Shown piece after piece: positions 24,083 through 37,817 of a stretch of 37,817 bases of DNA. Source of the DNA: Bacillota bacterium (GTDB lineage: Bacteria; Bacillota; Limnochordia; Darwinibacteriales; Darwinibacteriaceae); contig DUPN01000033.1 in NCBI GenBank assembly GCA_012838305.1, positions 1-37,817 on the forward strand, written 5' to 3'. Position 1 is the stretch's first letter. The number at the start of each line of letters is the position of its first letter. Below the pieces are notes generated by a model. The model saw nothing but the letters and a program-made list of their open reading frames with translations. It was not told where the DNA came from and searched no databases. The position numbers were made by a program, and so were the translations under genes.

Positions 24083-27000
24083 CTACTTCTCTCCACCGAC
24101 TGCTGCCGGAGGTTTTCGTTCCAGACGATGGAAAACCTCATAGACTGTGGGGATCACAAAGAGTGTCAAGAAGGTCGACGTGAGTAGTCCTCCCATGATG
24201 GTGGCGGCCAAAGGCCTCTGGAACTCAGCTCCCACTCCCCGGGCCAAGACAACGGGCAAGAGGCCAAAGACAGTTGTAATTGTGGTCATCAAAATGGGAC
24301 GCAAACGAACTTGACAAGCCTCTAGAATTGCTTCCCGCACGGGAAGGTTCGGATTTTGGCCTCTGCGAAGGTTGATGTAGTCCACAAGCACAATGGCATT
24401 GTTCACTACCACTCCTGCCAAGACGATAATACCTATAATCGACATGATGCCGACATTTCCACCCACGAGCCACAAACCGATTAAAGCGCCAATCAGGGCC
24501 AGAGGAATGGTAAACATGATAATAAAGGGCTGGACAAAGGACTCGAATTGGGCCGCCATTACAAGATAGACTAAGGCCACGGCTAAAACGAGGGCAAGAA
24601 GGAGTTCATCAATGGATTCGCCGATCATCGTCTGTAAACCGCCTATGCTGACATGGTAGCCAGGGGGAATGTCCATATCTGCGAGGATATCTTCGCTGAT
24701 GCGGACCGCCTGGGTAAGGGATAAATCGCCTAGAATTCCAATCACCCTGGCCAGGTTCAGACGGTCGGCACGCTGGGAGAGTGCTAGATTGGGTTGAACT
24801 TCAGGTGTGACCACTTCGCTTAGAAGAATCGGCTCACTGCCAAGGTTCTCAATTTGAACCGGAGAGGTGATGCGAGTGTTGAGCAGATCATCTACTGAAT
24901 CAATGGACGAGCTTGGTCTGAGCACAACTGGAAGGGATCTGTCTCCAATTTGCAGGTCGGTGGCCTTCAAACCTGCTGTGGCATAGCGCATACCCAAGCC
25001 AACTTGTCCCGCAGTAAAGCCTCCCAAAATGCTGCGGGAGGTATCCACCTTGAGGAACAGGTCTTTGGCCGGCCGAAAACCTGAGTCTTGCACATCCCTG
25101 AATCCTGGGATTTTGCTCAATTCGTCCCGCAGCTCCGCCGCTATAGCAGCGCACACCTGGGCACTCTGACCGCGAATATCAATGGTTAGGTTCGGTGTCA
25201 TCAGTGTACTAACGGAGGTGCCAAACAAAGATGTGTCCGAGATATTGGTTCGGAGTACACCATGCTTCTCCATGATATCATGGATGTCCTGGGTTAGGTC
25301 TTTGGCCATGCGCTCGCGTTCGCTGTGGGGTACTAGGGTAATAGAAAACATGGCGTTATCCAGTCCGGTACCCGCGAGCAGAGAGAGCAGATCCATTTCC
25401 CCTTGATCACCGGATTGCACAGCCACAGATGCTATTTCTGGAATCGCCATCAAATCGTTCTCGATGGCTATCACCAATTCCCGTGCGGTTTCCAAAGGCA
25501 AGCCTGACGGGAAATTGGTGTTCACCCCCAAAAACCCTTCATCGAAAGTGGGCAGGAACTCTTGGTCCATGCGGGGATAGATCAGAAGAGCTGTCCCAAG
25601 AAGCACCACAACTATGGTAAAGATAAGGGGCTTTTTGTCCAAAGCCTGCTTGAGAAGATTAGCGTAACCAGCCCGGAATTTAGCGAACTTGGCATCTGTT
25701 TTTTCCGCACTGGATGCCGCGTTTCTCTTCAGGAATTTTGAGGCTAACATGGGTAAGACGCTGAGAGACACGATCAAGGACGCCAAAAGTGCATAGGATA
25801 TGCTTAAGCCAAACTCTTTAAGCAACTGCCCTGCAAAGCTGCCTAGGAAAATGATGGGTAGAAAGATGACCACGGATGTTGCAGTGGAGGCGATTAACGC
25901 TCCTGCAATTTCTCCAGCTCCATGTGCTGCGGCCAATCGCGGATTGGCCTCTGTGCCGCGGTGACGGAAGACATTCTCCAAAACTACGATGGAGGAGTCC
26001 ACCAGCATACCGACTCCTAAGGCCATGCCTCCGAGGGTCATCAGGTTAAGGGATAGATTGGAAAAATACAACAAGACAAAACTAGCAATAATGGACACAG
26101 GAATGGATAAACCTACAATCAAGAGACTGGAAACGTTGCGCAGGAAAAACCAAAGAACCGCAATGGCAAGGATACCACCGATGATGCCGCTTGATGCCAA
26201 AGAGCCAATGCTTTGGTTGATGAAGACAGACTGATCTGTAATGGTAGCAAAACGGAGATGCGGACGATCCGTCTCAATCTTCTTCAGGGTCTCCTTGAGA
26301 TCCGCCGCTACTTGCACGGTGTTAGCCCCACTTTGCCGCATCACCTGGATCAAAATGGTGTCTTGCCCATCGTGGCGGGTGATGCCGTCTCTGGGTTCGA
26401 TATGGGTGGTGACCTCAGCAACATCGCTCAAATAGGTTAAGGACGGGAGAAGGCCCCCTAAACCCAGGATGCCGCTTCCTTGTCTCATGCCAACAATAAT
26501 GTTCTCCAGCTCTTCCACGCTGCCGATTTGGCTGCCGGCACGCGTTGTGTAACGGGTTCCATCGGCGGTCACTGCACCACCAGGGACGATAATGTTTTGG
26601 TACATAATGAGCTGCTGGAGGATAACGGGCGTTAGGCCAACTTCGTTGAGGTAATCCGGATCGAAAAGCACTTGAACCTCTTCTTTGCTGGTGCCGAACA
26701 AGCTGACTTGAGCTACGCCAGGCAATTGTTCCAGCTGGGGTTTGATCTCCGCTATTTCCTCGGAAAGGTCCACAGCGGAAAGATTCTGCGAGCTAACCCC
26801 GATTAACATGAGGGGAAAAGCGTTCGGATCAATTTGGACCACGACGGGATCTTCTGCGTCTGCCGGCAGCGATAAACTCACCTGGGCCAGCTTGCTGCGG
26901 ATCTCATCAAGTGCGCTGAGCATATCGGTACCCCAGTCAAATTGGAGCACCACTGCGGAAACGTCTTCCATGCTGTAGGATTCCATGAACTTGAGGCCGC

Positions 27001-27223
27001 TGATGCCTGAAACGCTGCCTTCGACAGGAATGGTTATGTTCTGTTCGATGGCGTTAGCTGCGCCGCCCGGATAAACAGTCACCACTGCGGCAATGGGCAA
27101 ATCCAGGTTCGGTAGCAGATCGATCCCTATTCGCTGCAGGGAGATAACTCCGAATAATAAAGTGATAATGACCACAACCGTAACGGCGACGGGTCTGCGT
27201 ACCGCAAGTTTTGACAGTTGCAT
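24083..27223 (-). CDS. RND-family efflux permease (AcrB/SwrC-like)
   Basis: This 1,046-residue inner-membrane pump would export hydrophobic compounds using the proton gradient. It starts MQLSKLAVRRPVAV with TM1, has two large extracytoplasmic loops, and ends with a TM block containing VVNNAIVLVDYINL. The TM4 proton-relay motif is GMLVDSSIVVLENV: the first Asp (409) is kept and the second is Ser 410, as opposed to the Asp pair in AcrB. No membrane-fusion partner or regulator is adjacent. B. subtilis SwrC is also a lone RND. AAGGAGGA precedes ATG 27223. Substrate cannot be told. Confidence 0.92.
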   Translation of the reverse strand: MQLSKLAVRRPVAVTVVVIITLLFGVISLQRIGIDLLPNLDLPIAAVVTVYPGGAANAIEQNITIPVEGSVSGISGLKFMESYSMEDVSAVVLQFDWGTDMLSALDEIRSKLAQVSLSLPADAEDPVVVQIDPNAFPLMLIGVSSQNLSAVDLSEEIAEIKPQLEQLPGVAQVSLFGTSKEEVQVLFDPDYLNEVGLTPVILQQLIMYQNIIVPGGAVTADGTRYTTRAGSQIGSVEELENIIVGMRQGSGILGLGGLLPSLTYLSDVAEVTTHIEPRDGITRHDGQDTILIQVMRQSGANTVQVAADLKETLKKIETDRPHLRFATITDQSVFINQSIGSLASSGIIGGILAIAVLWFFLRNVSSLLIVGLSIPVSIIASFVLLYFSNLSLNLMTLGGMALGVGMLVDSSIVVLENVFRHRGTEANPRLAAAHGAGEIAGALIASTATSVVIFLPIIFLGSFAGQLLKEFGLSISYALLASLIVSLSVLPMLASKFLKRNAASSAEKTDAKFAKFRAGYANLLKQALDKKPLIFTIVVVLLGTALLIYPRMDQEFLPTFDEGFLGVNTNFPSGLPLETARELVIAIENDLMAIPEIASVAVQSGDQGEMDLLSLLAGTGLDNAMFSITLVPHSERERMAKDLTQDIHDIMEKHGVLRTNISDTSLFGTSVSTLMTPNLTIDIRGQSAQVCAAIAAELRDELSKIPGFRDVQDSGFRPAKDLFLKVDTSRSILGGFTAGQVGLGMRYATAGLKATDLQIGDRSLPVVLRPSSSIDSVDDLLNTRITSPVQIENLGSEPILLSEVVTPEVQPNLALSQRADRLNLARVIGILGDLSLTQAVRISEDILADMDIPPGYHVSIGGLQTMIGESIDELLLALVLAVALVYLVMAAQFESFVQPFIIMFTIPLALIGALIGLWLVGGNVGIMSIIGIIVLAGVVVNNAIVLVDYINLRRGQNPNLPVREAILEACQVRLRPILMTTITTVFGLLPVVLARGVGAEFQRPLAATIMGGLLTSTFLTLFVIPTVYEVFHRLERKPPAAVGGEK

Positions 27224-27329
27224 GAAAATCCTCCTTCAAGGTATAAGGCAGGCTGTTTCCGCCTCTGTATAGGTTCGGGTTTGGGTCGGGTTATCCTCCC
27301 TTTTTTGGTGGGAAGGAGTGGAAAAGGAT

Positions 27330-27842
27330 ATGGGTAGATCTAGCAGGTTAGTGTGGCCCTTGCTTGTCCTGATCGGGATCTGCAGCTTAGCCCTATACCT
27401 TTGGTGGGGCGGAAGAGCTCCACTTGTACCCTCTCCTCCAGGTGAAGACGGGGGGGAAGGAAAACTGGAGGGTTGGCGCCAGACTTTTTCCGAAGCGGAC
27501 CTCGACCTCTTGGCCAGGGTGGTGAGGGCAGAAGCCCAGGGAGAACCCTATGACGGTCAGGTGGCCGTGGCTGCTGTGATCTTAAACAGGGTCAATCATC
27601 CAGAGTTTCCCAACACGATTCCGGGCGTCGTGTACGAGCCTCTGGCTTTTTCGGTTGTGGCCAATGGACAAGTCAATAAGCCCGCGGATCAAAGCGCCAT
27701 CCAAGCAGCCCACTGTGCCCTCAACGGCTTGGATCCATCTGGAGGCGCTTTGTATTTCTACAATCCTGCCAAGACCCGAAGTGCGTGGATTCGCAGCCGC
27801 GCGGTGATCAAAACAATCGGGGATCATATTTTCGCTAGTTAG
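27330..27842 (+). CDS. sleB: SleB-type cell wall hydrolase (spore germination)
   Basis: This 170-residue protein has an N-terminal membrane segment (residues 8-26), a short linker, and a SleB/CwlJ-type hydrolase domain. The domain begins LLARVVRAEAQGEP, with the likely catalytic Glu at residue 68, and continues AVAAVILNRV and the C-terminal ALYFYNP. Such enzymes are lytic transglycosylases acting on spore cortex. It lacks the peptidoglycan-binding domain of full-length SleB. Pairing with ypeB 12 bases downstream supports a cortex role. GTG 27318 is an in-frame alternative start. Confidence 0.85.
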   Translation: MGRSSRLVWPLLVLIGICSLALYLWWGGRAPLVPSPPGEDGGEGKLEGWRQTFSEADLDLLARVVRAEAQGEPYDGQVAVAAVILNRVNHPEFPNTIPGVVYEPLAFSVVANGQVNKPADQSAIQAAHCALNGLDPSGGALYFYNPAKTRSAWIRSRAVIKTIGDHIFAS

Positions 27843-27854
27843 GGGTCTACACGC

Positions 27855-29126
27855 ATGCCCAAGAGTGTGAAAGGCAAGCTCATAGCCATAGTGTTCGTAG
27901 TTGGATTGCTTGGTGTGGGGTATGCCGCAGGACAGTATTATCTCCATGGCATCTATCAGCGGCAAGTGGAGGTAGGTTATCGCCGAGCCTTAGGGGAACT
28001 CTGCAGCCACCTGGATGAAATTACTAAAGAGATGGGCCGTGCCAGGCTGGCGGTGAGTCCCAAACAGCGCAGTCTGATCAGTGCCAACCTGCGTCGTCTG
28101 GTTTACGCTGCCCAAAGCAATATGGGTGAGTTACCCCTGGGAGAGATCCATCTGGAGCGGATCTCCCATCTTTTAGATCGCATCGATGCAGAGAGTCATG
28201 CCTATTGGCAGGATGGCGATAACTCGCCGCTTTTGGATCAGCTCCACGAACAAATAGGGTATGTGAGTCGTGAGTTTGGGCAGTTGGTGGAGCGCAAAGA
28301 TCAGGAGTTCCCCTGGGTCTTTTGGTACGAGTATTTCTCCACTGCAGCCGTTGTACCCCAATTTCTGCAGGCTCTGACCCTAATCAATGACGGATTGGAG
28401 GAATTTGATGCTCCTGTACGTCAAGGAACAATTTTGGGCGAAGACATCGATGGAGAGCAGGCCATAGAAGCGGCCAGAGTGTTTAGCGAACGGGAGAATC
28501 TAAATTTTCAGGTAATCAGTGAAACCAAAGGCAGCATTCCCTCCTATACGGTGGTGGCGATAGACGGCGAGGAGAGGGTTATAGTCGAAGTGTCCCAAAA
28601 GGGCGGGATGGTTTTGTGGATGACGGTGGCTTCAGCAGTTCAAGACAATCGGGCAGGCACCCTCACCTTAGAGGAAATAATCAAACAAGGATGGGGGTTT
28701 TTGGAAGAAAGGGGGTTTACGTCCTTACACATTACGGATGCTCAAACCTTGCAAAACAGGGTAACCTTGACCTTTGTTCCCATGCGGGAAGGGGTCTTGC
28801 ACTATGGAGAGCCCCTGAGGGTGCAAGTAAGTGCAGTTGATGGCAGTATTATCGGTTTCTGGGCAACCTCGTTTTTCTTAGCTCAAAGCAGAGTGCGGCC
28901 CGAACGAACCGTTGGGGAGGCTGCTTGGAGTGTTAACGAGAAGATCCAGGCAGGTGTTGAGATCCTCGATCAAAAGATGGCCCTGATCCTCAATGAACAG
29001 CAGAAAGAGACCTTAACGACCAGGCTCGGTGTGCAGTATCAAGGGGATTACTATTTAATCTACTTGAATTTCGAGACGGGGGATGAAGAGCATATTGTAC
29101 AAGTTGCTTCACCCCAGTTCTTCTAG
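27855..29126 (+). CDS. ypeB: Germination protein YpeB
   Basis: This 423-residue protein is needed in Bacillus for SleB placement and stability in the spore inner membrane. It has an N-terminal signal anchor (VKGKLIAIVFVVGLLG), a helical N-terminal domain, then PepSY-like repeats in the C-terminal half (for example GEQAIEAARVF, LTLEEIIKQGWGFLEERGF and RTVGEAAWSVNEKI). It forms an operon with the SleB gene. Its stop shares the CTAG with the convergent dnaE2 stop. Confidence 0.88.
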   Translation: MPKSVKGKLIAIVFVVGLLGVGYAAGQYYLHGIYQRQVEVGYRRALGELCSHLDEITKEMGRARLAVSPKQRSLISANLRRLVYAAQSNMGELPLGEIHLERISHLLDRIDAESHAYWQDGDNSPLLDQLHEQIGYVSREFGQLVERKDQEFPWVFWYEYFSTAAVVPQFLQALTLINDGLEEFDAPVRQGTILGEDIDGEQAIEAARVFSERENLNFQVISETKGSIPSYTVVAIDGEERVIVEVSQKGGMVLWMTVASAVQDNRAGTLTLEEIIKQGWGFLEERGFTSLHITDAQTLQNRVTLTFVPMREGVLHYGEPLRVQVSAVDGSIIGFWATSFFLAQSRVRPERTVGEAAWSVNEKIQAGVEILDQKMALILNEQQKETLTTRLGVQYQGDYYLIYLNFETGDEEHIVQVASPQFF

Positions 29127-32100
29127 GGCAGTCCCTGGATTCGGGTTGCATTGATGCTGGCCCGTTCATGAGGATCACGCCGGGAGATCTTCCCAGTTAC
29201 AAGCAGCAAAGGCTGATTAAAGATAATTTTTGCATACTTTCGATAGATGTCTTCAAAGATTGTTACATCAATCAGGCCGTACTCGTCTTCCAGCGATAAA
29301 AAGACTACGGTTTTGCCGCTGCGGGTGGGCGGACGATGGGGTCGTATCACCAGACCTCCTAAGGTAAGGGGACTGCCCTCTGTGAGAAGGGAGGCATCTT
29401 GGGTCGTAAGTGCCTTCGCGGGGAGATTTGGGCGAAAAAACTCCATAATATGTCCCTGGGCCGAAAGACTGAGAACAGCATATTCTCTGACCCAGCGTTC
29501 AAAGGGAGAAAAGTCTGCGACAGTATTTTGAGTGGGAGTTTCCAAGAAGAGACTCCCCTGTTTTGTTTGATAGTATTTCGGCAAATTCCAAAGCAGCATC
29601 CGGCGATTGTTTAAAAGACTGTCGAATGCTCCCCCTAGAATTAGGTTTTCCACCACATCCTTATTGACATTGGTGCGATAGACAAAGTCTTGCAGGGAGG
29701 AAAAATGCCTTTTGCTGCGCGCTGCAACAATGGAATTGAGAAAGGCGGCTTCCATGCCCTTAACCTGCTTGAGACCAATGCGAATGGAGGTATCGGTGGC
29801 GGTAAATTCCACATCGCTTTCATTGATATCCAGGGGGGCAAGGGTAATTCCACGGTTTTTGGCTTGGACACAGAGTGTGTTGGGGGGATAAAAGCCCATG
29901 GGCTGCTGGTTCAAGAGTGCTGCATAGAACTGAGCGGGATGGTGTTCTAAAAGGTAAGCGGTGCGATAGGCTGTATCTGCAAAAGCTGCGGCATGGGCTT
30001 CGCAAAAACCATATCCTGCATAACCCAGGACATAGGAAAAAATCGTTTCCGCCGTCTCCTTTTCCACACCCCGCTTAACGGCTTTTTGGATAAAGTCCAC
30101 CTGAATTTGATCCATCTCTTTTTGGGAGCGAAACTTTGTCATCGCCTTACGCAAACGGTCAGACTCTCCTGGGGTAAACCCGGCAATCTCCGTGGCGATT
30201 TCAATCACCTGTTCCTGATAAAGCACAACACCATAGGTGGGGGCTAGGATCTTTTCCAGTTTCGGGTGGATATAGGTTACTGCTTCACGTCCATGCCTGC
30301 GGGCAATAAAGGGATCCACCATATTGCCCTTGATGGGGCCTGGTCTGATCAAAGCCACGCTGGCCACAATATCTTCGAAGCGGTCCGCTTGCAGACGCGA
30401 TTGTAAGCTGCGCTGGGCTGGACTTTCCAGCTGAAACACCCCTACTGTTTCTCCCTTCTGAAGCCTGGCAAAGGTAGCTTTGTCGTCGATGGGTATTTCA
30501 TTGTAGTCCAGCCTGGGCCCAACTTGATTTACTGCAGTGGAAACGGCGGATAGGGTACGCAAGGACAGAAGATCGATTTTGATCAGCCCCAAATCCTCAA
30601 TGGTGTCCTTGTCAAACTGGGTGATCAAGACCCCTTTTGCTGAGGGCTGCAAAGGTGTAACCGTGGTTAGGGGCTCGCCGCTCACCACCAAACCTCCTAG
30701 ATGGGTCCCCATTTGCCTGGGAAAACCCGTAATGGCAGCACAGTAATCCAAGAGCTTACTGTATTTGGCCTGATGTAGGGGATGTTTTTTCAGCTCAGGC
30801 AGTCTGTGCAGCAGAGAACGAATGCCATCCGCGGGAATACTGGTGATATTTTTGGTCAACTGCTGTAACTCACTGAGGGGAAGCCCCAAGGCCTTGCCCA
30901 TATCCCGCAGGGCCGAGCGGGCATGGTAGGTTTGGAAGGTGCAGACAGAGGCCACCCGTTCAGGCCCATAGCGCTCATAGACATACTGGGCCACCTGATC
31001 TCGATGGCGCGCATCAAAATCAATGTCGATATCGGGTTTCTGCGCTCGCTCTAGACTCAAAAAACGCTCAAACAGGAGTCCTCTGGCAAAGGCATCCACA
31101 TTGGTGATTTCAAGGCAATAGACCACAACGGAGTCGGCTGCTGAGCCCCGGCCGGCATAGCGTATGTTTTGTTCCTTAGCATATTGCACCAGATCCCAGA
31201 CCGCCAGAAAATAGTCAGCCACATCAAGCTGCTTAATGATTTCCAGCTCGTGTTGAATTCGTTCTCTTAAGGGGCGGGAGATGGATGCATAGCGCTTTTG
31301 GGCTCCATTCCAGGTCAATTCGCCTAGGACTTGAATGGATTTTTCCGGTCCGGCGTGAGGAAAGTAGCGGGGGAAGAGGTTCTTACCCAAATCCAGAGCC
31401 AAGGAGCAGCGATCTGCAATTTCCAATGTATTTCGAATGGCTTCGGGGAAGGGGGCAAAGCGCCGTTTCATTTCTTCCGGTGAGGTCAAATAGTTTTCTC
31501 CGTTTATGGGGCGATCCAGATGGAGCTCGTCAAGCCTTGTCTTGGTCCGGGTGCAAACCAGCAGATCGTGGATGGGAAAATCTTCTTTCCGTAGATAATG
31601 TACATTGTTGGTAGCCACCAATGGAATGCGTAATTCTTCATGGAGTTTGAAAAGTCCGCCAAGGAGGTATTTTGTAAAAGGCAGATAACTATGGATTATT
31701 TCCAGATAGACTTGGTTGGATCCAAAGATCTCCACAAGGCGCAAAGCCTCAGCTTTAGCCTGTGCATAGTCTTTACGCAAAATAGCTTGAGCCACACCTG
31801 AGCGGTGGCAGCCGCTCAGGACAAGTAAGCCGCGGTTGTTTTTGGCCAGAGCCTTCCAGGGCACTAAGGGCTGGTGTCTGGTACCATGGGCATACCCTGC
31901 CGTTAATAGGCGGCATAAAGCATGGTAACCGTCTCTGTTTTCGGCCAGCAGGGTGAGATGGGTGCCGTCTTCTGTGGTAATTTCGGCACCTTGAATAGGT
32001 TTTAAACCTAAGGCCAACGCTGTTTTTTGAAATTCCACCGCTCCGCTCACATTGCTATGGTCGGTTAAGGCCATGGCCGGCATATCCCACTTTGCTGCCT

Positions 32101-32176
32101 GAGTAAGAAGTGCCTCCAGTCGCGAGGCTCCATCTAAAAACGAATAGGGAGAATGAACATGTAAATGGACGAACAC
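29123..32176 (-). CDS. dnaE2: Error-prone DNA polymerase III alpha, DnaE2/ImuC type
   Basis: This 1,017-residue C-family polymerase has an N-terminal PHP domain (HLHVHSPYSFLDG, TDHSN, GAEI), a palm with catalytic Asp residues D382 and D384 in PDIDIDFDARHRDQV and D535 in KIDLLSL, and a C-terminal OB fold. GFPRQMGTHLGGLVVSG and a short C-terminus point to DnaE2 rather than replicative DnaE. The start is GTG 32176 after GGAGGT. It is last in a three-gene cassette under a LexA-box promoter, so translesion synthesis during SOS is the likely role. The replicative polymerase must be elsewhere. Confidence 0.88.
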   Translation of the reverse strand: MFVHLHVHSPYSFLDGASRLEALLTQAAKWDMPAMALTDHSNVSGAVEFQKTALALGLKPIQGAEITTEDGTHLTLLAENRDGYHALCRLLTAGYAHGTRHQPLVPWKALAKNNRGLLVLSGCHRSGVAQAILRKDYAQAKAEALRLVEIFGSNQVYLEIIHSYLPFTKYLLGGLFKLHEELRIPLVATNNVHYLRKEDFPIHDLLVCTRTKTRLDELHLDRPINGENYLTSPEEMKRRFAPFPEAIRNTLEIADRCSLALDLGKNLFPRYFPHAGPEKSIQVLGELTWNGAQKRYASISRPLRERIQHELEIIKQLDVADYFLAVWDLVQYAKEQNIRYAGRGSAADSVVVYCLEITNVDAFARGLLFERFLSLERAQKPDIDIDFDARHRDQVAQYVYERYGPERVASVCTFQTYHARSALRDMGKALGLPLSELQQLTKNITSIPADGIRSLLHRLPELKKHPLHQAKYSKLLDYCAAITGFPRQMGTHLGGLVVSGEPLTTVTPLQPSAKGVLITQFDKDTIEDLGLIKIDLLSLRTLSAVSTAVNQVGPRLDYNEIPIDDKATFARLQKGETVGVFQLESPAQRSLQSRLQADRFEDIVASVALIRPGPIKGNMVDPFIARRHGREAVTYIHPKLEKILAPTYGVVLYQEQVIEIATEIAGFTPGESDRLRKAMTKFRSQKEMDQIQVDFIQKAVKRGVEKETAETIFSYVLGYAGYGFCEAHAAAFADTAYRTAYLLEHHPAQFYAALLNQQPMGFYPPNTLCVQAKNRGITLAPLDINESDVEFTATDTSIRIGLKQVKGMEAAFLNSIVAARSKRHFSSLQDFVYRTNVNKDVVENLILGGAFDSLLNNRRMLLWNLPKYYQTKQGSLFLETPTQNTVADFSPFERWVREYAVLSLSAQGHIMEFFRPNLPAKALTTQDASLLTEGSPLTLGGLVIRPHRPPTRSGKTVVFLSLEDEYGLIDVTIFEDIYRKYAKIIFNQPLLLVTGKISRRDPHERASINATRIQGLP

Positions 32177-32192
32177 CCCAAACGACCTCCAT

Positions 32193-32432
32193 TTAGTCTG
32201 CTAGACGGTACAAAACCCATTGTTCAGTACTTGGTAGAAAATGCAGTTCGCAGCGGCAGCGGTCTGTACTCACTTCGTACACAAACAGTTCTGATTCATC
32301 TGTCCACCATTGTCCGGCCTCTCGCCAATGCTGGAGAATATACTTAATGATGAAGTTTTGCCCGAAGAAAAAGGAAGAGGGGAAATCCCCTGCATAGGTA
32401 AGCAGGATGGGTTGATTAATAAGTTTGCTCAT
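32193..32432 (-). CDS. Small Trp-rich protein of the mutasome cassette
   Basis: This 79-residue protein lies between the ImuB-like gene (ATGA overlap of 4 bases) and dnaE2 (16-base gap). It contains YILQHWREAGQWWTDESE, a YEV strand, CELHFLP and the ending QWVLYRLAD. This W-X-X-G-X-W-W pattern resembles the small domain, possibly DUF6504, that is fused to or found near Y-family mutasome proteins in other phyla. That match is from memory and should be checked. I infer a partner or detached domain of the ImuB-like protein. Confidence 0.75.
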   Translation of the reverse strand: MSKLINQPILLTYAGDFPSSFFFGQNFIIKYILQHWREAGQWWTDESELFVYEVSTDRCRCELHFLPSTEQWVLYRLAD

Positions 32433-33538
32433 CGAAAACACTCCTCCCAGAGGATCAAGAGCCGTTCTCGCCGGGAAAGCTTCATACCCACTTGGGTATA
32501 ATCTGGAAGTTCCTCGCCAAGCAGCTGTGGAGCCTGGGGCTCCCAAAACATAGTGAGCTGGGCTAAAGGAGACGGCTCCAATTTGTCGACAGTAATCCTT
32601 ATTTGTGCCAGAAAATCATCAGGTAGAAGACTTTCCGCTGCCCGCAATAAAGCCTTTGCATCATTTGTGGCCTGCTTAAATAGGCGCTTCTTTTCAAAAG
32701 GTGTTCCCTGGGCTAACTGAGCCTCTAGTTTGATTTGACCAGCCACTTTCTGCTGGTCGTTTAGCGTGGCGGCTAGTTTTTGGGCACCCTGCTGAAGATA
32801 GGGCTTAAGTTCGTGGGCCGCAGCAGGCCGCAGAAAGCCCTCGAGGGCGGTGAAATCCAGGTTCCAACTGTATGTTAGGTCTTGTCGGGGCTGAAAGGGG
32901 ATGCTATCTTGACCGCGCCCGAGCTGCTGTAGAAGGATAGCTCTTTGTCCAAATTGAATGCTAAGCTCGGCAGCGGGGATTTTCTCCAACTCGCCCACAG
33001 TTTTTATGCCAAGTTTTTCTAAGGAGTCCGCCTCGGGCAGGGGTAAGCGTCGGATCGGGATCCTATCCAGAAAAAACCGTGTTTGATTGGGAGGAACGAT
33101 TCGGTCAGAACCCGTTCGATTATGGGCGGCCAATTTGGCCACTATTTTACTTTGACCTGCGCCCCAAATTCCACCTTCAATCCCCTTGTCTGCTTGCAGT
33201 TTTTCCCTGAAATCGACGACAAACTGCTCGAAAATGGGCCTCTGTCTAAAGCGCAAGTACCAGGCATGGGGATACTCTACCTCCAGTTCCTCTGTGTAGA
33301 GGCGTGAGAATTGATGCCATTCTTGGGCGAAGGGAGCAAAATCGCTGAGAGAAATGGGGATGGTGCAAATTGGCTTGGTGGGATGATTGGTAAAGCCGTG
33401 CTCCTTGAGTTCGGGGGAAAAATCCCAGATTTCCCTTTTGTGTGTTAAAATGTAATAAGCATCACTTTGCGATTCAGAGGCGCGAGGCGATTCAAAATGA
33501 CGAATATAAAAGTGGCGTAAGCCACAGTAGACGATCAT
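32429..33538 (-). CDS. imuB: ImuB-like inactive Y-family polymerase
   Basis: This 369-residue protein has the Y-family palm/finger segment GIWGAGQSKIVAKLAAHN, the thumb helix-hairpin-helix LGIKTVGELEKIPAAEL and LGRGQDSIPFQP. The Asp near the N-terminus and the Ser-X-Asp-Glu motif that bind catalytic metal in true polymerases are not seen (MIVYCGLRHFYI and YPHAWYLRFR stand there). A beta-clamp-like motif QLTMF is at residues 327-331. These are the traits of ImuB, the non-catalytic hub of the DnaE2 mutasome. AGGAGG precedes ATG 33538. Confidence 0.78.
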   Translation of the reverse strand: MIVYCGLRHFYIRHFESPRASESQSDAYYILTHKREIWDFSPELKEHGFTNHPTKPICTIPISLSDFAPFAQEWHQFSRLYTEELEVEYPHAWYLRFRQRPIFEQFVVDFREKLQADKGIEGGIWGAGQSKIVAKLAAHNRTGSDRIVPPNQTRFFLDRIPIRRLPLPEADSLEKLGIKTVGELEKIPAAELSIQFGQRAILLQQLGRGQDSIPFQPRQDLTYSWNLDFTALEGFLRPAAAHELKPYLQQGAQKLAATLNDQQKVAGQIKLEAQLAQGTPFEKKRLFKQATNDAKALLRAAESLLPDDFLAQIRITVDKLEPSPLAQLTMFWEPQAPQLLGEELPDYTQVGMKLSRRERLLILWEECFR

Positions 33539-33554
33539 AAAGATGCCTCCTCGA

Positions 33555-33566
33555 GAACAACTGTTC
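33555..33566. promoter_or_regulatory. LexA (SOS) box 1, upstream of imuB-like gene
   Basis: GAAC-AACT-GTTC is a perfect GAAC-N4-GTTC palindrome, the Firmicutes LexA/DinR operator. It lies between the -10 and the ribosome binding site of the mutasome cassette, so bound LexA would block the promoter start region. Confidence 0.85.
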
Positions 33567-33572
33567 GCCCCA

Positions 33573-33602
33573 ATTATAATACAGAACAAAGGTTCGAGTC
33601 AA
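33573..33602 (-). promoter_or_regulatory. Promoter of the SOS mutasome cassette
   Basis: On the minus strand TTGACT (33597-33602), an 18-base spacer and TATAAT (33573-33578) form a strong sigma-70 promoter. Its spacer holds LexA box 2, and LexA box 1 follows just downstream. Confidence 0.85.
33584..33595. promoter_or_regulatory. LexA (SOS) box 2, inside the promoter spacer
   Basis: GAAC-AAAG-GTTC is a second perfect GAAC-N4-GTTC site, with centres 29 bases from box 1. It sits between the -35 and -10, where LexA would directly exclude RNA polymerase. It is also 27 bases upstream of the divergent MBL-fold gene. Confidence 0.85.
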
Positions 33603-33621
33603 GGAGGGAAAGGGTGGTATC

Positions 33622-34380
33622 ATGGAAATTACATTTTTGGGAACCGGTACATCCCATGGTGTGCCTGTCATAACCTGCGGCTGTGCAGTATGTCAAAGCC
33701 GTAATCCCAAAAACAAGCGTACCCGCAGTTCTCTTTGGATACGTAATCAAGATACGGATCTTCTCATTGATACCGCCACCGAATTTCGACTGCAGGCCCT
33801 CAAGGCCAAGATTCAGAAGGTGGATGGGGTGCTCTACACCCATTGCCACGCTGACCATGTCTTTGGTTTCGATGATCTGCGTGTTTTTAGTAAGCTAACA
33901 GGCAGGAGCATTCCTATTTATGGGAATGAACCCACAATTTCCGAGCTCAGGGAGGTCTTTTCCTATGTTTTCCGGAAAACTCAGGTGGGCGGGGGAAAAC
34001 CACAGGTTGAAACCATCGTGGTTGAGGAGCCTTTCCGAGTGCAAAATCTGCTGGTGCAACCCATCCCTGTTTTCCACGGAACATTGCCTATTTTCGGATA
34101 CCGCCTCGGACAGTTAGCTTATATCACAGATTGCAGCTATATTCCCCCTTCCTCCCTTGATTTGCTCTTGGGTTTGGATACTCTGATTCTGGGTGTGATC
34201 CGGCATGAGCCCCATCCCACCCACATGCATATGGAGCAGGCTCTGGACTTGGCCAGCAAGCTCGGGGCGAAGCGCACATATTTTACCCATATCTCCCATT
34301 TGCTGGAGCATGAAGAAATAAGCCAAATGTTACCGGAGGGTATTTCACTGGCCTATGATGGGTTGACCGTCCGGATCTAA
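33622..34380 (+). CDS. MBL-fold metallo-hydrolase (PhnP-like)
   Basis: This 252-residue protein has the metallo-beta-lactamase fold. It starts MEITFLGTGTSHGVPVITCGC, with the CXC-X2-C cysteines seen in PhnP-type proteins, and has the metal motif THCHADHVFGFDDLR. Further ligands are likely in VFHGTLP, ITDCSY and FTHISH. The best guess is a phosphodiesterase related to PhnP, but the substrate is unknown. It is divergent from the SOS cassette and shares its 83-base control region. No clear promoter of its own was seen. Confidence 0.88.
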   Translation: MEITFLGTGTSHGVPVITCGCAVCQSRNPKNKRTRSSLWIRNQDTDLLIDTATEFRLQALKAKIQKVDGVLYTHCHADHVFGFDDLRVFSKLTGRSIPIYGNEPTISELREVFSYVFRKTQVGGGKPQVETIVVEEPFRVQNLLVQPIPVFHGTLPIFGYRLGQLAYITDCSYIPPSSLDLLLGLDTLILGVIRHEPHPTHMHMEQALDLASKLGAKRTYFTHISHLLEHEEISQMLPEGISLAYDGLTVRI

Positions 34381-34454
34381 GGGACCAAAGTGGAAGAATT
34401 CTTGCCTCGCATTTGCATATAGTGTAATGATCTTCTATAGCAGGGAGGGGCAAG

Positions 34455-35042
34455 ATGATCATCCACAAGGAATATGCTTTGCGTCGTTTTTGCGAAGTTC
34501 CCCTGAAACATGCGTTAAGCAAGGGCCTTCTAGAAAAAATCTGTGCACATCCAGCCTTGCTCACCAAGTTGGTTTTTGTTCGTACCCGAGATTTTCTATC
34601 GAACACGATGGTTGTTTCCCAGGCCGGGACCTCTGAGATCGGCTTTGAACTGCAATTGGGAAGTGATTCGGAGCACCTGACCCTGGTCAATGGGGATTTG
34701 CATCGAGAAAGGCAAAAAACAAGAGAGATACCCATCCAAGATCCCCTCAAGGCATGGGATATCTTGCAGGACTTCCCTGGAATCCTCCATGTACAGCTCG
34801 TTTTTAAAGCTGATACTCCCGATTGGTATGAGGAAATCGCGGTGCCAAATGAAGCTATTCCTCCTCCAGCTCCAGGGGTTGGCTATGGGGCCTTTGTCCG
34901 CGAGCAAGTGGACTTAATCCTCTGGGCCATCACCTTGAGGGGACAAATCGATCAGGCGCTCCAGGCCAGAGATGAAAAAAGTTTCAAAGAATCGGTTCAG
35001 CTCTATAAGGAGGTCTGCCATTCTTGTTTTTGGAGGTTATAA
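34455..35042 (+). CDS. YpiB-like protein (UPF0302 with IDEAL motif)
   Basis: This 195-residue protein resembles B. subtilis YpiB. It has an N-terminal region with LLEKICAHPALLTKLVFVR and SQAGTSEIGFEL, then a C-terminal IDEAL-type helix IDQALQARDEKSFKE. No catalytic motif is visible. In B. subtilis YpiB has been linked to lipid A-type or quinol oxidase assembly only loosely, so I assign no function. A GGGAGGGG site precedes ATG 34455. The identification is from memory of the family. Confidence 0.55.
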   Translation: MIIHKEYALRRFCEVPLKHALSKGLLEKICAHPALLTKLVFVRTRDFLSNTMVVSQAGTSEIGFELQLGSDSEHLTLVNGDLHRERQKTREIPIQDPLKAWDILQDFPGILHVQLVFKADTPDWYEEIAVPNEAIPPPAPGVGYGAFVREQVDLILWAITLRGQIDQALQARDEKSFKESVQLYKEVCHSCFWRL

Positions 35043-35060
35043 AACACGGTGATTGTTTCC

Positions 35061-35121
35061 ATCCTGCCTTGATCGAAGTAGGCAGGATTTATCATGATAG
35101 GCGTGGAACTCTCCATGATAA
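35061..35121. repeat. Two inverted repeats upstream of lepB
   Basis: ATCCTGCCT (35061-35069) pairs with AGGCAGGAT (35080-35088) over a 10-base loop. It is directly followed by TTATCATG (35089-35096), which pairs with CATGATAA (35114-35121). The first may terminate the upstream gene weakly (only TTTAT follows). The second could be an operator. Confidence 0.5.
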
Positions 35122-35151
35122 GCCGAAACCATTATCTTGGAGGTAGCCAGA

Positions 35152-35715
35152 TTGAAGCCAGAAGTTCGCAGACCCAAGAGCCAAATACGAGAACTCGTGG
35201 AAACGGTAGGCTCCGCCGTCCTGATCGCAGCGTTCATTATGATTTTTATCGCTCGAGCCTATACCGTCAATGGCGACTCCATGCTTCCCACTTTACATCA
35301 CGGTGAACGTCTTTTGGTGGACAAGATCTCCTACCGTTTTGTGGACCCCTCCCGTGGGGAAATCATTGTTTTCAAGAACCCATCGGATACGGATGAGCAA
35401 TTTGTGAAGAGAGTGATTGGTCTGCCTGGGGATGAGATTGCCATCGTGCAGGGTGTCGTGTACATCAACGGTCAGCCTGTTGAAGAAGACTATACCCTAG
35501 CTCCGGCCCGGATTGGATTTACATCTCAAATTGTTCCGGAAGGTACGTACTTTGTCCTGGGCGACAATCGGAATAACAGCGAAGACAGCCGCTTTGGCCG
35601 TGTGGGGTTTTTGCCCCGCAGCTTGATCATTGGACGTGCCGTCTGGCGGTATTGGCCTCTAAATCAAATGGACCTGATGTTCCCGCCAAAGGTCTTTGAG
35701 TCCTTCGCCCTCTAA
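35152..35715 (+). CDS. lepB: Signal peptidase I
   Basis: This 187-residue membrane protease removes signal peptides from exported proteins. It has one N-terminal TM segment (about residues 18-36), the nucleophile Ser 43 in GDSMLPTL and the general-base Lys 86 in FVKRVIGLPGD. The box E motif GDNRNNSEDSRFGRVG is also present. The frame is open from TTG 35137, but TTG 35152 follows GGAGGT with proper spacing. The start is therefore TTG 35152. Confidence 0.95.
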   Translation: MKPEVRRPKSQIRELVETVGSAVLIAAFIMIFIARAYTVNGDSMLPTLHHGERLLVDKISYRFVDPSRGEIIVFKNPSDTDEQFVKRVIGLPGDEIAIVQGVVYINGQPVEEDYTLAPARIGFTSQIVPEGTYFVLGDNRNNSEDSRFGRVGFLPRSLIIGRAVWRYWPLNQMDLMFPPKVFESFAL

Positions 35716-35858
35716 GGACAGAACACCGCTTTACGTTCCCGCTTTAGCTTCAGAAATAACAGAATACTATGAATTTACGCTTCGAGTTTTTTCTCCGCTG
35801 GCATGAACAAGCTTCCCAAATCTGTGTAATATATATGGATTTTGAGGAGGTTATCATT

Positions 35859-36965
35859 GTGAAGAAACGACTTGCTTTGGCCTTATCAGGAGGCAGTGTG
35901 CGGGCGGCCGCCCATGTTGGTGTCCTCAAGGCTTTGGAAGAGTATGCTTTGGAACCCGATGTGGTGGTGGGAACATCGGGAGGCGCCATTGTGGCAGCGC
36001 TTTATGCCACTGGGCTTACAGCCGCAGAGTTGCAGAAACTCTTTTGGGAGTACAGCAGAGCGAAAGGGAAAATCGTTGATCTAAACTGGCCAGGAGCGAT
36101 CTTGGCCCTGCTTACTTGGGATATTAAGCGCCTTACCGGGGTTGTCAGGGGGGTATCACTGGAGAAGATCATTGCCCAGAGCCTTCCCGTCCAGCATTTC
36201 CGCGATTTGAAAAAATGCCAGCTTCTTATTCCTGCAGTCAATCTGAACAATGGTCAGCAGACGGTGTTCTGTGATTACAAAACCCTGGGGTTAACCTTGG
36301 ATGCAGAGGGCAAGTGTGCAGAATACCCTCTCCGCGATGACCTGACCATAGCCCAAGCAGTTCGCGGCAGTATCAGTATTCCGGGGGTATTTGTTCCCGC
36401 CGTGTTCGACGGTGGGGCAAGCGGCGATTGTTTCGTGGATGGGGCCTTAAGGGATGGCTATCCCCTGAATATTGCTGTCCGTCTCGGTCAGGCTCAAAGG
36501 GTGCTCGGAGTGAACTTAGGCTATGCGGGTATACGTCGAGACACCATTTTGGACGATGGTCCCCTGGAGATTTTCAGCCAGTCGCTGGATATCATGATGC
36601 GGGCGCAGTATCGGGATCGCCTGCAGGATCGGGCCTTAATCCGCAGCAGAATTCTGACCATTAATCCTTTGATCTATGATATCGGGACCTTTGAGATCGA
36701 ATATATTCCTCCCATGATTGAAAGGGGCTACGAGGTGGCCACCCGCCTGTTTCGGGAGAGGGGACTCCAGCCTGGCAGGGCCGAAAATAGGGAGCGCCTT
36801 TTCCAATTGGTTGGCGATCCCCAGAGCTTTCCCGCCAAAGGCAGCGCCTATTTTACTCATCTCCTGGAAAACCAGATCAAAAGGAAGTCGGTGGTCGAGC
36901 GCGAGGCCAAGGTGGGCTGGCTAGGTTATTTGCGTACACTCGTAGGCAGACGTGAGGTGGGCTAA
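35859..36965 (+). CDS. Patatin-like phospholipase
   Basis: This 368-residue protein has the patatin fold. The oxyanion motif is LSGGSVRAAAHVGVL, the nucleophile elbow VGTSGG puts Ser at residue 40, and the catalytic Asp is residue 194 in FVDGALRDG. It likely hydrolyses acyl esters of lipids, probably in the cytoplasm since no signal peptide is seen. GAGGAGG at 35844-35850 selects GTG 35859, although the frame is open from 35769. A weak candidate promoter (TGAACA, 17 bases, TAATAT, 35804-35832) lies upstream. Confidence 0.9.
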   Translation: MKKRLALALSGGSVRAAAHVGVLKALEEYALEPDVVVGTSGGAIVAALYATGLTAAELQKLFWEYSRAKGKIVDLNWPGAILALLTWDIKRLTGVVRGVSLEKIIAQSLPVQHFRDLKKCQLLIPAVNLNNGQQTVFCDYKTLGLTLDAEGKCAEYPLRDDLTIAQAVRGSISIPGVFVPAVFDGGASGDCFVDGALRDGYPLNIAVRLGQAQRVLGVNLGYAGIRRDTILDDGPLEIFSQSLDIMMRAQYRDRLQDRALIRSRILTINPLIYDIGTFEIEYIPPMIERGYEVATRLFRERGLQPGRAENRERLFQLVGDPQSFPAKGSAYFTHLLENQIKRKSVVEREAKVGWLGYLRTLVGRREVG

Positions 36966-36990
36966 ACGCGTGGTTTTCGCGGACAGCAGA

Positions 36991-37817
36991 CTACAGGCTG
37001 ATCCCGTAGGTCTCTCGAGTAACACTGATATAGCGCTCGGCTAGTTCGTGGGCACCTTGAATGTCGAGCATATGGACGGAGGACTGTAAGCTTGTGAGGT
37101 ATTCGGGATGACCAAGGTGATACTGGGCTATTCCTTTTCTGTATAACAAGGCTCCAAGGCAGTGCGATAGGTAGTTATCATTGCAGAAATCGATTCCTTC
37201 TGTAGCCACCTTCAGGGCATTTTGGTGGTCGTCGATGCGGTGGTAGTTGTAGGACAGGTTGAAATAAATCTTGGCCCGAAGCAGTTTTTCGTGCCAGGTG
37301 GCATACATGCTTCCATCCAAATGTTTTAAGCAAAAGAGCATGATCTCATTGCTTAATTGTGCTTTCTCGTGGGAGAGGGATGTGGCAATCATGAACAAAA
37401 TCCGCAGCTCAAACTCTGTATACTTAAACGCATGGAAACGCTCCGGTTCGAAGTTGGGGTGGCTGATCTGCATGGCCGCACAAAAATCCTCCAAATCACC
37501 CTGACGAAGAGAAAAGTGTTTGTTAGCACCGGATAACATCAAGCGAAACTGCTCTGCGGCCACAATATTCACCAAGGTGCTCTTGGCACTCATATTACTG
37601 ATATAGTCCTCAAGGTTCTGGCTCAACTGCTGGAATGCGTCGAGATCATAATAGACGATCAAATCATCAAAGCGGTAGTAAAGCTCAAAGAGATCATTGG
37701 CATTACTATACGAGGCCAGGAGGGCTAATAGATCCCTTTTGTAGGTCAGGGACAGATGGGCCAGGGTATCATATCTGGGGACAACCTCTCCGTTTTCTAT
37801 TCTGCGCAGGGTATCTG
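36991..37817 (-). CDS. HTH XRE-family regulator with TPR-like C-terminus (partial)
   Basis: The gene runs off the right edge, with its stop at 36991. At least 275 residues are visible, ending VTRETYGISL. The part nearest the edge reads TLRRIENGEVVPRYDTL, which matches the last helices of a Cro/C1-type HTH. The rest is helical with TPR-like repeats (for example KIYFNLSYNYHRIDDHQNAL), as in Rgg/PlcR-like peptide-sensing or other HTH-TPR regulators. The true start is outside the window. It converges on the patatin gene. Confidence 0.75.
   Translation of the reverse strand, partial: DTLRRIENGEVVPRYDTLAHLSLTYKRDLLALLASYSNANDLFELYYRFDDLIVYYDLDAFQQLSQNLEDYISNMSAKSTLVNIVAAEQFRLMLSGANKHFSLRQGDLEDFCAAMQISHPNFEPERFHAFKYTEFELRILFMIATSLSHEKAQLSNEIMLFCLKHLDGSMYATWHEKLLRAKIYFNLSYNYHRIDDHQNALKVATEGIDFCNDNYLSHCLGALLYRKGIAQYHLGHPEYLTSLQSSVHMLDIQGAHELAERYISVTRETYGISL

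Follow-up and report, generated by a model that had tools for sequence, protein, structure and literature searches.

The window analysed here, a 37,817-nucleotide stretch of contig DUPN01000033.1 from a Bacillota bacterium of the order Darwinibacteriales (GenBank assembly GCA_012838305.1), carries three adjacent minus-strand genes that encode, in this order, a Y-family polymerase relative, a small protein and a DnaE-type polymerase. A preliminary description had seen in them a tight operon of a dead Y-family protein, a 79-residue protein and a DnaE2-type polymerase, and its coordinates were confirmed: the Y-family gene has an ATG start with AGGAGG seven bases upstream, the ATG of the small gene overlaps the Y-family stop by four bases (ATGA), and dnaE begins 16 bases beyond the stop of the small gene (Table 1). 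Very probably, the genes form a LexA-repressed operon that supplies an error-prone complex for lesion bypass, of the published type that combines an inactive Y-family scaffold (iPolY or ImuY), a standalone ImuB C-terminal domain (ImuB-C) and DnaE2.

Table 1 Features of the cassette and its promoter in the window.
Feature	Position	Strand	Basis
-35 hexamer TTGACT	33597..33602	-	Consensus scan
LexA box 1 (GAAC-N4-GTTC), within the promoter spacer	33584..33595	-	Pattern search; motif also upstream of the genome's own lexA
-10 hexamer TATAAT	33573..33578	-	Consensus scan
LexA box 2, just past the -10 hexamer, 29 bp from box 1	33555..33566	-	Pattern search; 28-32 bp spacing kept in relatives
iPolY/ImuY-type scaffold, predicted inactive Y-family protein, 369 aa	32429..33538	-	Pfam IMS_C; Y-family fold without catalytic D/DE; 35/36 order genomes
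Sliding-clamp-type motif QLTMF of iPolY, residues 327-331	32546..32560	-	Order alignment
24-residue linker at the usual RecA-NT place, motif missing	32474..32545	-	Motif profile and RecA position-specific scoring matrix
Standalone ImuB-C (DUF6504), 79 aa, predicted seven-stranded beta protein	32193..32432	-	Pfam PF20114; AlphaFold2 model
DnaE2 (X-type clade) polymerase, 1017 aa, GTG start	29123..32176	-	Pfam; trees; catalytic aspartates kept
Consensus-type clamp motif QGSLF of DnaE2, residues 873-877	29546..29560	-	Aligned with QISLF/QVSLF/QTDLF/QADMF of DnaE1

In the Y-family protein, Pfam recognised the little-finger domain IMS_C only, and the palm domain, IMS, went undetected at E ≤ 1; the only other Y-family gene of the genome scored 176 bits for IMS. 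An AlphaFold2 model of iPolY (mean predicted local distance difference test score (pLDDT) 82.9) aligned over residues 1–323 with Y-family polymerases (eta, kappa and IV) at a VIA Z of about 17–19. The root-mean-square deviations of these alignments were large (12–20), so the domains are probably placed differently. Where the active DinB of the genome reads PLSIDEAFLD, the iPolY family has ExEYPHAWY in a by-eye alignment, and the catalytic D-E pair is therefore gone. Judged from its sequence, the Y-family member of this module is predicted to be inactive. A regular-expression check of the active site across 78 Y-family proteins of the phylum gave five matches, which were deemed by eye to be due to chance. 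Two C-terminal elements are kept across the order: the sliding-clamp-type motif, of which Q327 and L328 are invariant and F331 nearly so, and an RRExLxxW element with invariant R356 and R357.

The small protein matched Pfam PF20114 (DUF6504) at 23.2 bits, and 23 of the 27 order homologues matched the model at E ≤ 0.01. The same profile matched residues 430–508 (31.7 bits) of a canonical ImuB from a Komagataeibacter plasmid; the gene of this ImuB has a 'damage-inducible protein' gene on one side and dnaE2 on the other. It also matched a 111-aa protein encoded on its own, flanked by a Y-family gene and dnaE2, on a plasmid from Abditibacteriota. Because DUF6504 thus covers both the C terminus of an ordinary ImuB and the Abditibacteriota protein, we identify the small protein as ImuB-C; given this homology, it and the Y-family protein together represent a split ImuB. 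Its AlphaFold2 model has seven strands and is nearly all beta (mean pLDDT 88.8). Structural matches in the PDB were weak (best Z 5.6), and those obtained, monellin and spermidine synthases, were too weak to name a relative; the account of ImuB-C in PMC12926913 likewise gives no closely related PDB structure. A YolD-like identity was unsupported, as Pfam yielded DUF6504 only, and a search of the small protein against phages returned no match.

Pfam assigned PHP, polymerase, finger, HhH and OB domains to the DnaE protein, which ends right after the OB domain and conserves its catalytic aspartates, in PDIDIDF and IKID. Of the 28 cassette polymerases in a 45-row tree (LG+G4), 26 formed one clade (98) beside the DnaE2A and DnaE2B references; the phylum rows L201 and L204 fell outside it. 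A 32-row tree under a mixture model, which left out L201, L204, L095 (the replicative DnaE of the window genome, a long branch) and L067 (Rubrobacter), gave a Shimodaira–Hasegawa-like approximate likelihood ratio of 100 both for the cassette clade (17 rows) and for the split of all DnaE2 from DnaE1 and DnaE3. On these phylogenies the window polymerase belongs with DnaE2, apart from the replicative DnaE1 and DnaE3, and the grouping with replicative DnaE that the preliminary description had named as its refutation did not appear. The cassette clade looks like a third DnaE2 clade and fits the DnaE2X group as described in PMC12926913. The genome also encodes PolC and another DnaE, whose neighbours read as accD, accA and pfkA from their translations. 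This PolC (L096:1413-4817, C61), of 1135 aa, is without the exonuclease insertion, a form that PMC3919608 reports from some Clostridia and Negativicutes.

Upstream of the operon lies a promoter with 11 of 12 consensus matches and an 18-bp spacer (TTGACT-18-TATAAT). It is straddled by two perfect GAAC-N4-GTTC boxes, the sole two in the window, which the preliminary description did not mention. Shuffling of the window gave a mean of 0.62 boxes, and two were reached in 13 of 100 shuffles, so the count by itself is weak evidence. The arrangement is conserved: in the window's family (f1), upstream sequence is available for 21 loci, 20 of which show a perfect pair of boxes (spaced by 29 bp in 16 loci, 28 bp in three and 32 bp in one), and the twenty-first pairs a perfect box with a single-mismatch one 29 bp away; a twenty-second locus has no upstream sequence. 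Among eight loci from the other four families of the order (f2–f5), three have one perfect box and the rest single-mismatch boxes only. In the window genome, the lexA gene (named by NCBIfam), located apart from the cassette, is preceded by one perfect and two single-mismatch boxes and recA by one single-mismatch box, and none was seen upstream of dinB. The case for LexA control rests on box position and conservation; judged by sequence, the predicted LexA operators at the promoter mark the operon as an SOS regulon member. A metallo-beta-lactamase-fold gene (33622–34380) diverges from the cassette promoter, and a promoter-like site on its strand (33551–33580) overlaps LexA box 2; this gene might therefore share SOS control.

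No RecA-like ImuA accompanies the cassette, and this part of the preliminary description was borne out genome-wide as far as profiles reach. A RecA family search of the genome returned RecA and weak matches only (best 0.004), and none of the 36 genomes, the window's included, had an NCBIfam ImuA (NF033429) match above cut-off, a negative that proves little alone because control genomes likewise gave none. A profile built from five ImuA proteins, which in leave-one-out runs clearly found four held-out members and missed the most divergent one, retrieved only RecA-like and RadA-like frames, with trivial matches across stop codons in two genomes. An imuA elsewhere in the genome, the other refuting observation that had been named, was not found by these profile searches, and no recA-like frame was found in the fetched phylum cassette loci. 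We consider the absence of imuA from the window genome likely, not certain, as the assembly is 94.9% complete in 121 contigs.

Most published Y-family groups carry a RecA-NT motif near the C terminus (PMC6511836, PMC12926913), and in mycobacteria its removal or mutation is reported to abolish both ImuB–ImuA' binding and mutagenesis (PMC11791113). The corresponding segment lies between the clamp motif and the RRE element and measures 24 residues in the window and 21–30 in its family, against 35–56 in most relatives that bear both patterns. The clamp and RRE patterns were present in 40 of 74 phylum Y-family proteins, which defines the assessed set (the other 34 fall outside it); an earlier, wider clamp-pattern regular expression had obtained the segment in 73 of 109 proteins. 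We trained a RecA-NT profile on 34 phylum members with linkers of 30–60 residues. It recognised 33 of 34 held-out phylum segments, with a median of 26 bits and a 99% level of 3.1 bits for shuffled-sequence decoys. The window segment scored −1.4 bits, with P = 0.75 for the RecA position-specific scoring matrix, and so bears no recognisable RecA-NT motif. Of the 21 segments from the window's family, only that of L026 (3.2 versus 3.1 bits) rose above the 99% decoy level; the other 20 stayed at or below it. The f2 and f4 rows (2.9 and 2.4 bits) exceeded only the 95% level, and L033 of f2 was passed by the RecA matrix, which placed just 21 of 78 phylum proteins above its own 99% level. Short linkers also occur outside the window's family, since six of the 40 pattern-bearing phylum proteins have linkers below the training range. 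By these comparisons, the RecA-NT motif of the Y-family subunit is deleted or eroded in the window's family.

The polymerase of the same lineage carries a consensus-type clamp motif, QGSLF. DnaE2 in general is described as having a non-consensus clamp motif with prolines dominating positions 1 and 3 (PMC3919608). All six f3 members have QGSLF or QRSLF and the single f5 member has QGQLF; a motif of this type is absent from the DnaE1 clamp position in f4 (one member) and f2 (two distinct). Linkers are short in f1, f3 and f5 and longer (32 residues) in f2 and f4, so that linker length and clamp motif co-vary by family, a co-distribution of RecA-NT loss and QGSLF that rests on very few independent events.

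Taken together, these features suggest how the operon may work. DNA damage would lead to RecA filaments and LexA self-cleavage, freeing the two promoter-straddling boxes. The dead Y-family protein would serve as a scaffold that binds the sliding clamp through QLTMF, and ImuB-C would bridge it to the PHP domain of DnaE2, the presumed synthesising subunit, which probably also grips the clamp itself through QGSLF. RecA would be required for induction and may or may not also be a subunit, its usual docking motif being gone from the scaffold in this lineage. Induction by LexA release is supported by the predicted operators; complex formation, the contacts and mutagenic activity are carried over by analogy from Deinococcus and mycobacterial work (PMC12926913, PMC8072749). 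Several observations weigh against the assignment as a whole. The DUF6504 score of 23.2 bits lies just below the Pfam cut-off of 24.2; the box pattern is not enriched genome-wide (32 sites versus 76 for a reversed control pattern); no more than 11 of the 17 f1 members that have the region keep QGSLF or QGGLF; and, unlike in most DnaE2, the PHP metal site is for the most part preserved (a by-eye mapping of HHDHEH[C/H]DH retains 8 of 9 positions), which could mean proofreading and hence a less error-prone enzyme. Experimental mutant phenotypes, moreover, come from Deinococcus, whereas the window lineage is known from sequence and models.

How far RecA takes part beyond induction is where the readings divide. 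Loss of RecA-NT together with the QGSLF of DnaE2 points to a mutasome that the sliding clamp, not RecA or ImuA, would hold together: a rewired complex in which the motif for docking RecA or ImuA has been lost, iPolY, ImuB-C and DnaE2 alone would organise bypass on the clamp, and RecA would serve only for switching on the operon. We offer this tentatively, as possible though somewhat doubtful; that RecA is not a subunit in the window lineage is our inference. The published model may apply unchanged, with RecA a working subunit held by another iPolY surface (for example, the RRE..L..WE helix) or by ImuB-C, and this is a serious possibility, if still short of probable. It draws on the conservation of the RRExLxxW element across the order, on the part that ImuB-C plays in binding ImuA according to the mycobacterial model (PMC12926913, PMC11791113) and on the dependence of ultraviolet (UV) mutagenesis in D. 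deserti on chromosomal RecA, which is required for induction as well (PMC8072749). The mycobacterial RecA-NT mutants (PMC11791113) speak against it, as do the 21–30-residue linkers of the window's family, 20 of whose 21 segments score no better than the 99% level for shuffled sequence. PMC8072749 states as not known whether ImuY, ImuB-C and DnaE2 suffice for lesion bypass or need RecA in place of ImuA. A naturally motif-less family beside longer-linker sister families provides a ready comparison for the RecA requirement of such mutasomes.

Other readings concern the individual subunits. The near-intact PHP metal site and the consensus-type clamp motif depart from the DnaE2 norms described in PMC3919608 and would suit a fairly accurate SOS-induced gap-filling or backup enzyme rather than a mutator; this seems unlikely, as the polymerase falls on the DnaE2 side of the trees and ends right after the OB domain, the equivalent gene set is mutagenic in Deinococcus, and the DnaE2 of M. 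tuberculosis comes from a subgroup whose PHP site is likewise mostly intact (PMC3919608) yet is reported to be mutagenic (PMC6511836). The preliminary description had put the small protein in the third place, substituting for ImuA in a distinct mutasome. Its gene does sit between the other two and no ImuA was found, but its homology to the C-terminal domain of ImuB itself and its small beta model, which is not a RecA fold, contradict such a role, and we regard it as very improbable. It is scarcely credible that dnaE is a spare replicative gene caught in an SOS operon: the NCBIfam replicative-alpha model does slightly outscore the error-prone model (902 versus 870 bits, both under their cut-offs), but both trees contradict a replicative identity, and PolC and a further DnaE are encoded elsewhere in the genome.

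The three-gene set recurs well beyond the window, as a comparison of neighbourhoods of the ImuB-like family bears out. The Y-family gene is present in 35 of 36 genomes of the order, and all three genes occur in 27 of 30 order-level loci, the other three being cut by contig edges. Relatives include uncultured Bacillota, some labelled Limnochordia, and Peptococcaceae bacterium 1109. Among 398 genomes sampled evenly from the phylum, the ImuB-C profile matched in 98. Besides the window's, 97 loci were matched: 75 with Y-family, ImuB-C and DnaE genes, 13 with ImuB-C and DnaE without a recognised Y-family gene alongside, three with Y-family and ImuB-C without DnaE, and six counted as ImuB-C alone, two of which have dnaE on the other side (L201 and L204). 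The full set is thus found in 76 of 398 phylum genomes, the window's included, with lexA adjacent in three phylum loci. Judged from this sample, ImuA-less DnaE2 cassettes appear to be nothing unusual for the phylum, whereas a 2013 survey describes DnaE2 as extremely rare in PolC genomes (PMC3919608).

Several variants were encountered along the way. In all nine genomes read from f3 and f5 (L028, L029, L030, L031, L032, L035, L232, L249 and L250), the imuB-C frame is without an initial ATG, GTG or TTG; a conserved ATC TCT AAR (AGG in L035) overlaps the iPolY stop, seven bases after GGGAG. In L179, from another family, imuB-C also begins with ATC, preceded by GGGAGGTGATCT. An ordinary start lies nearby in 121 of the 137 ImuB-C frames examined. 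The ATC starts suggest either AUC initiation or, L179 excepted, a +1 frameshift by which a fused ImuB would be restored; the latter is hard to apply to L179 because a gap separates its frames. On the Candidatus Manganitrophus plasmid CP114554 (L100:3575-4576), one protein joins a Peptidase_S24 (LexA/UmuD-type) domain to a RecA-like domain, possibly as a protease–ImuA fusion; downstream of it come a Y-family gene, the gene of a small protein and a stretch resembling dnaE2. ImuB-C copies without a nearby Y-family or dnaE gene in the stretch read were seen in L135, L136, L151, L165, L193, L196, L197, L203, L225 and L230, some of them in genomes that also have a full cassette; L225 and L203 are short contig stretches.

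On the far side of dnaE2, SleB-like and YpeB-like spore germination genes occupy 27318–29126, the last of them sharing four bases with the dnaE2 stop in a tail-to-tail overlap; these homologues support the earlier guess of a spore-forming host. An Rfam scan of 26000–37817 gave no match.

The preliminary description had proposed an SOS mutasome cassette of a distinct kind. The SOS-type, ImuA-less character holds, and the novelty does not: the combination of iPolY, standalone ImuB-C and DnaE2 without ImuA was reported by Aravind in 2013 (PMC3765255) and by Timinskas and Venclovas in 2019 (PMC6511836), classified in 2026 (PMC12926913) and is also described in PMC8072749. The architecture is therefore already known, as the iPolY/ImuY–ImuB-C–DnaE2 (DnaE2X) type. 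The loss of RecA-NT together with a consensus-type DnaE2 clamp motif in the window's family looks new, with a description in some paper's supplement possible.

With the canonical ImuA–ImuB–DnaE2 mutasome of Mycobacterium, Caulobacter and Pseudomonas, the cassette shares SOS control, a dead clamp-motif scaffold, the ImuB-C domain and DnaE2; it differs in being without ImuA, in splitting ImuB into separate iPolY and ImuB-C genes and in the clade of its DnaE2. The Bacillus YqjW/UvrX–YolD (YqjX)–RecA system (PMC6511836) is likewise Gram-positive and SOS-induced and pairs a Y-family member with a small beta protein, but there the Y-family member is an active polymerase, the small protein is YolD rather than ImuB-C, and DnaE2 is absent. 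Closer still is the Kyrpidia tusciae type (DnaE2X; PMC6511836, PMC12926913), from a Gram-positive relative with the same three genes and a DnaE outside DnaE2A and DnaE2B. This type is published as bearing RecA-NT, with RecA presumed in the place of ImuA, whereas the window lacks the motif and has the QGSLF of DnaE2. In Deinococcus (D. deserti and D. ficus; PMC8072749), a predicted-inactive ImuY, an 80-residue ImuB-C and DnaE2 stand in the same order, under LexA control and with no ImuA in operon or genome, and deletion of imuY or dnaE2 abolishes UV mutagenesis (PMC8072749). The window genome differs from it in that its lexA lies elsewhere and in the loss of RecA-NT in its family, a loss scored against proteins of its own phylum.

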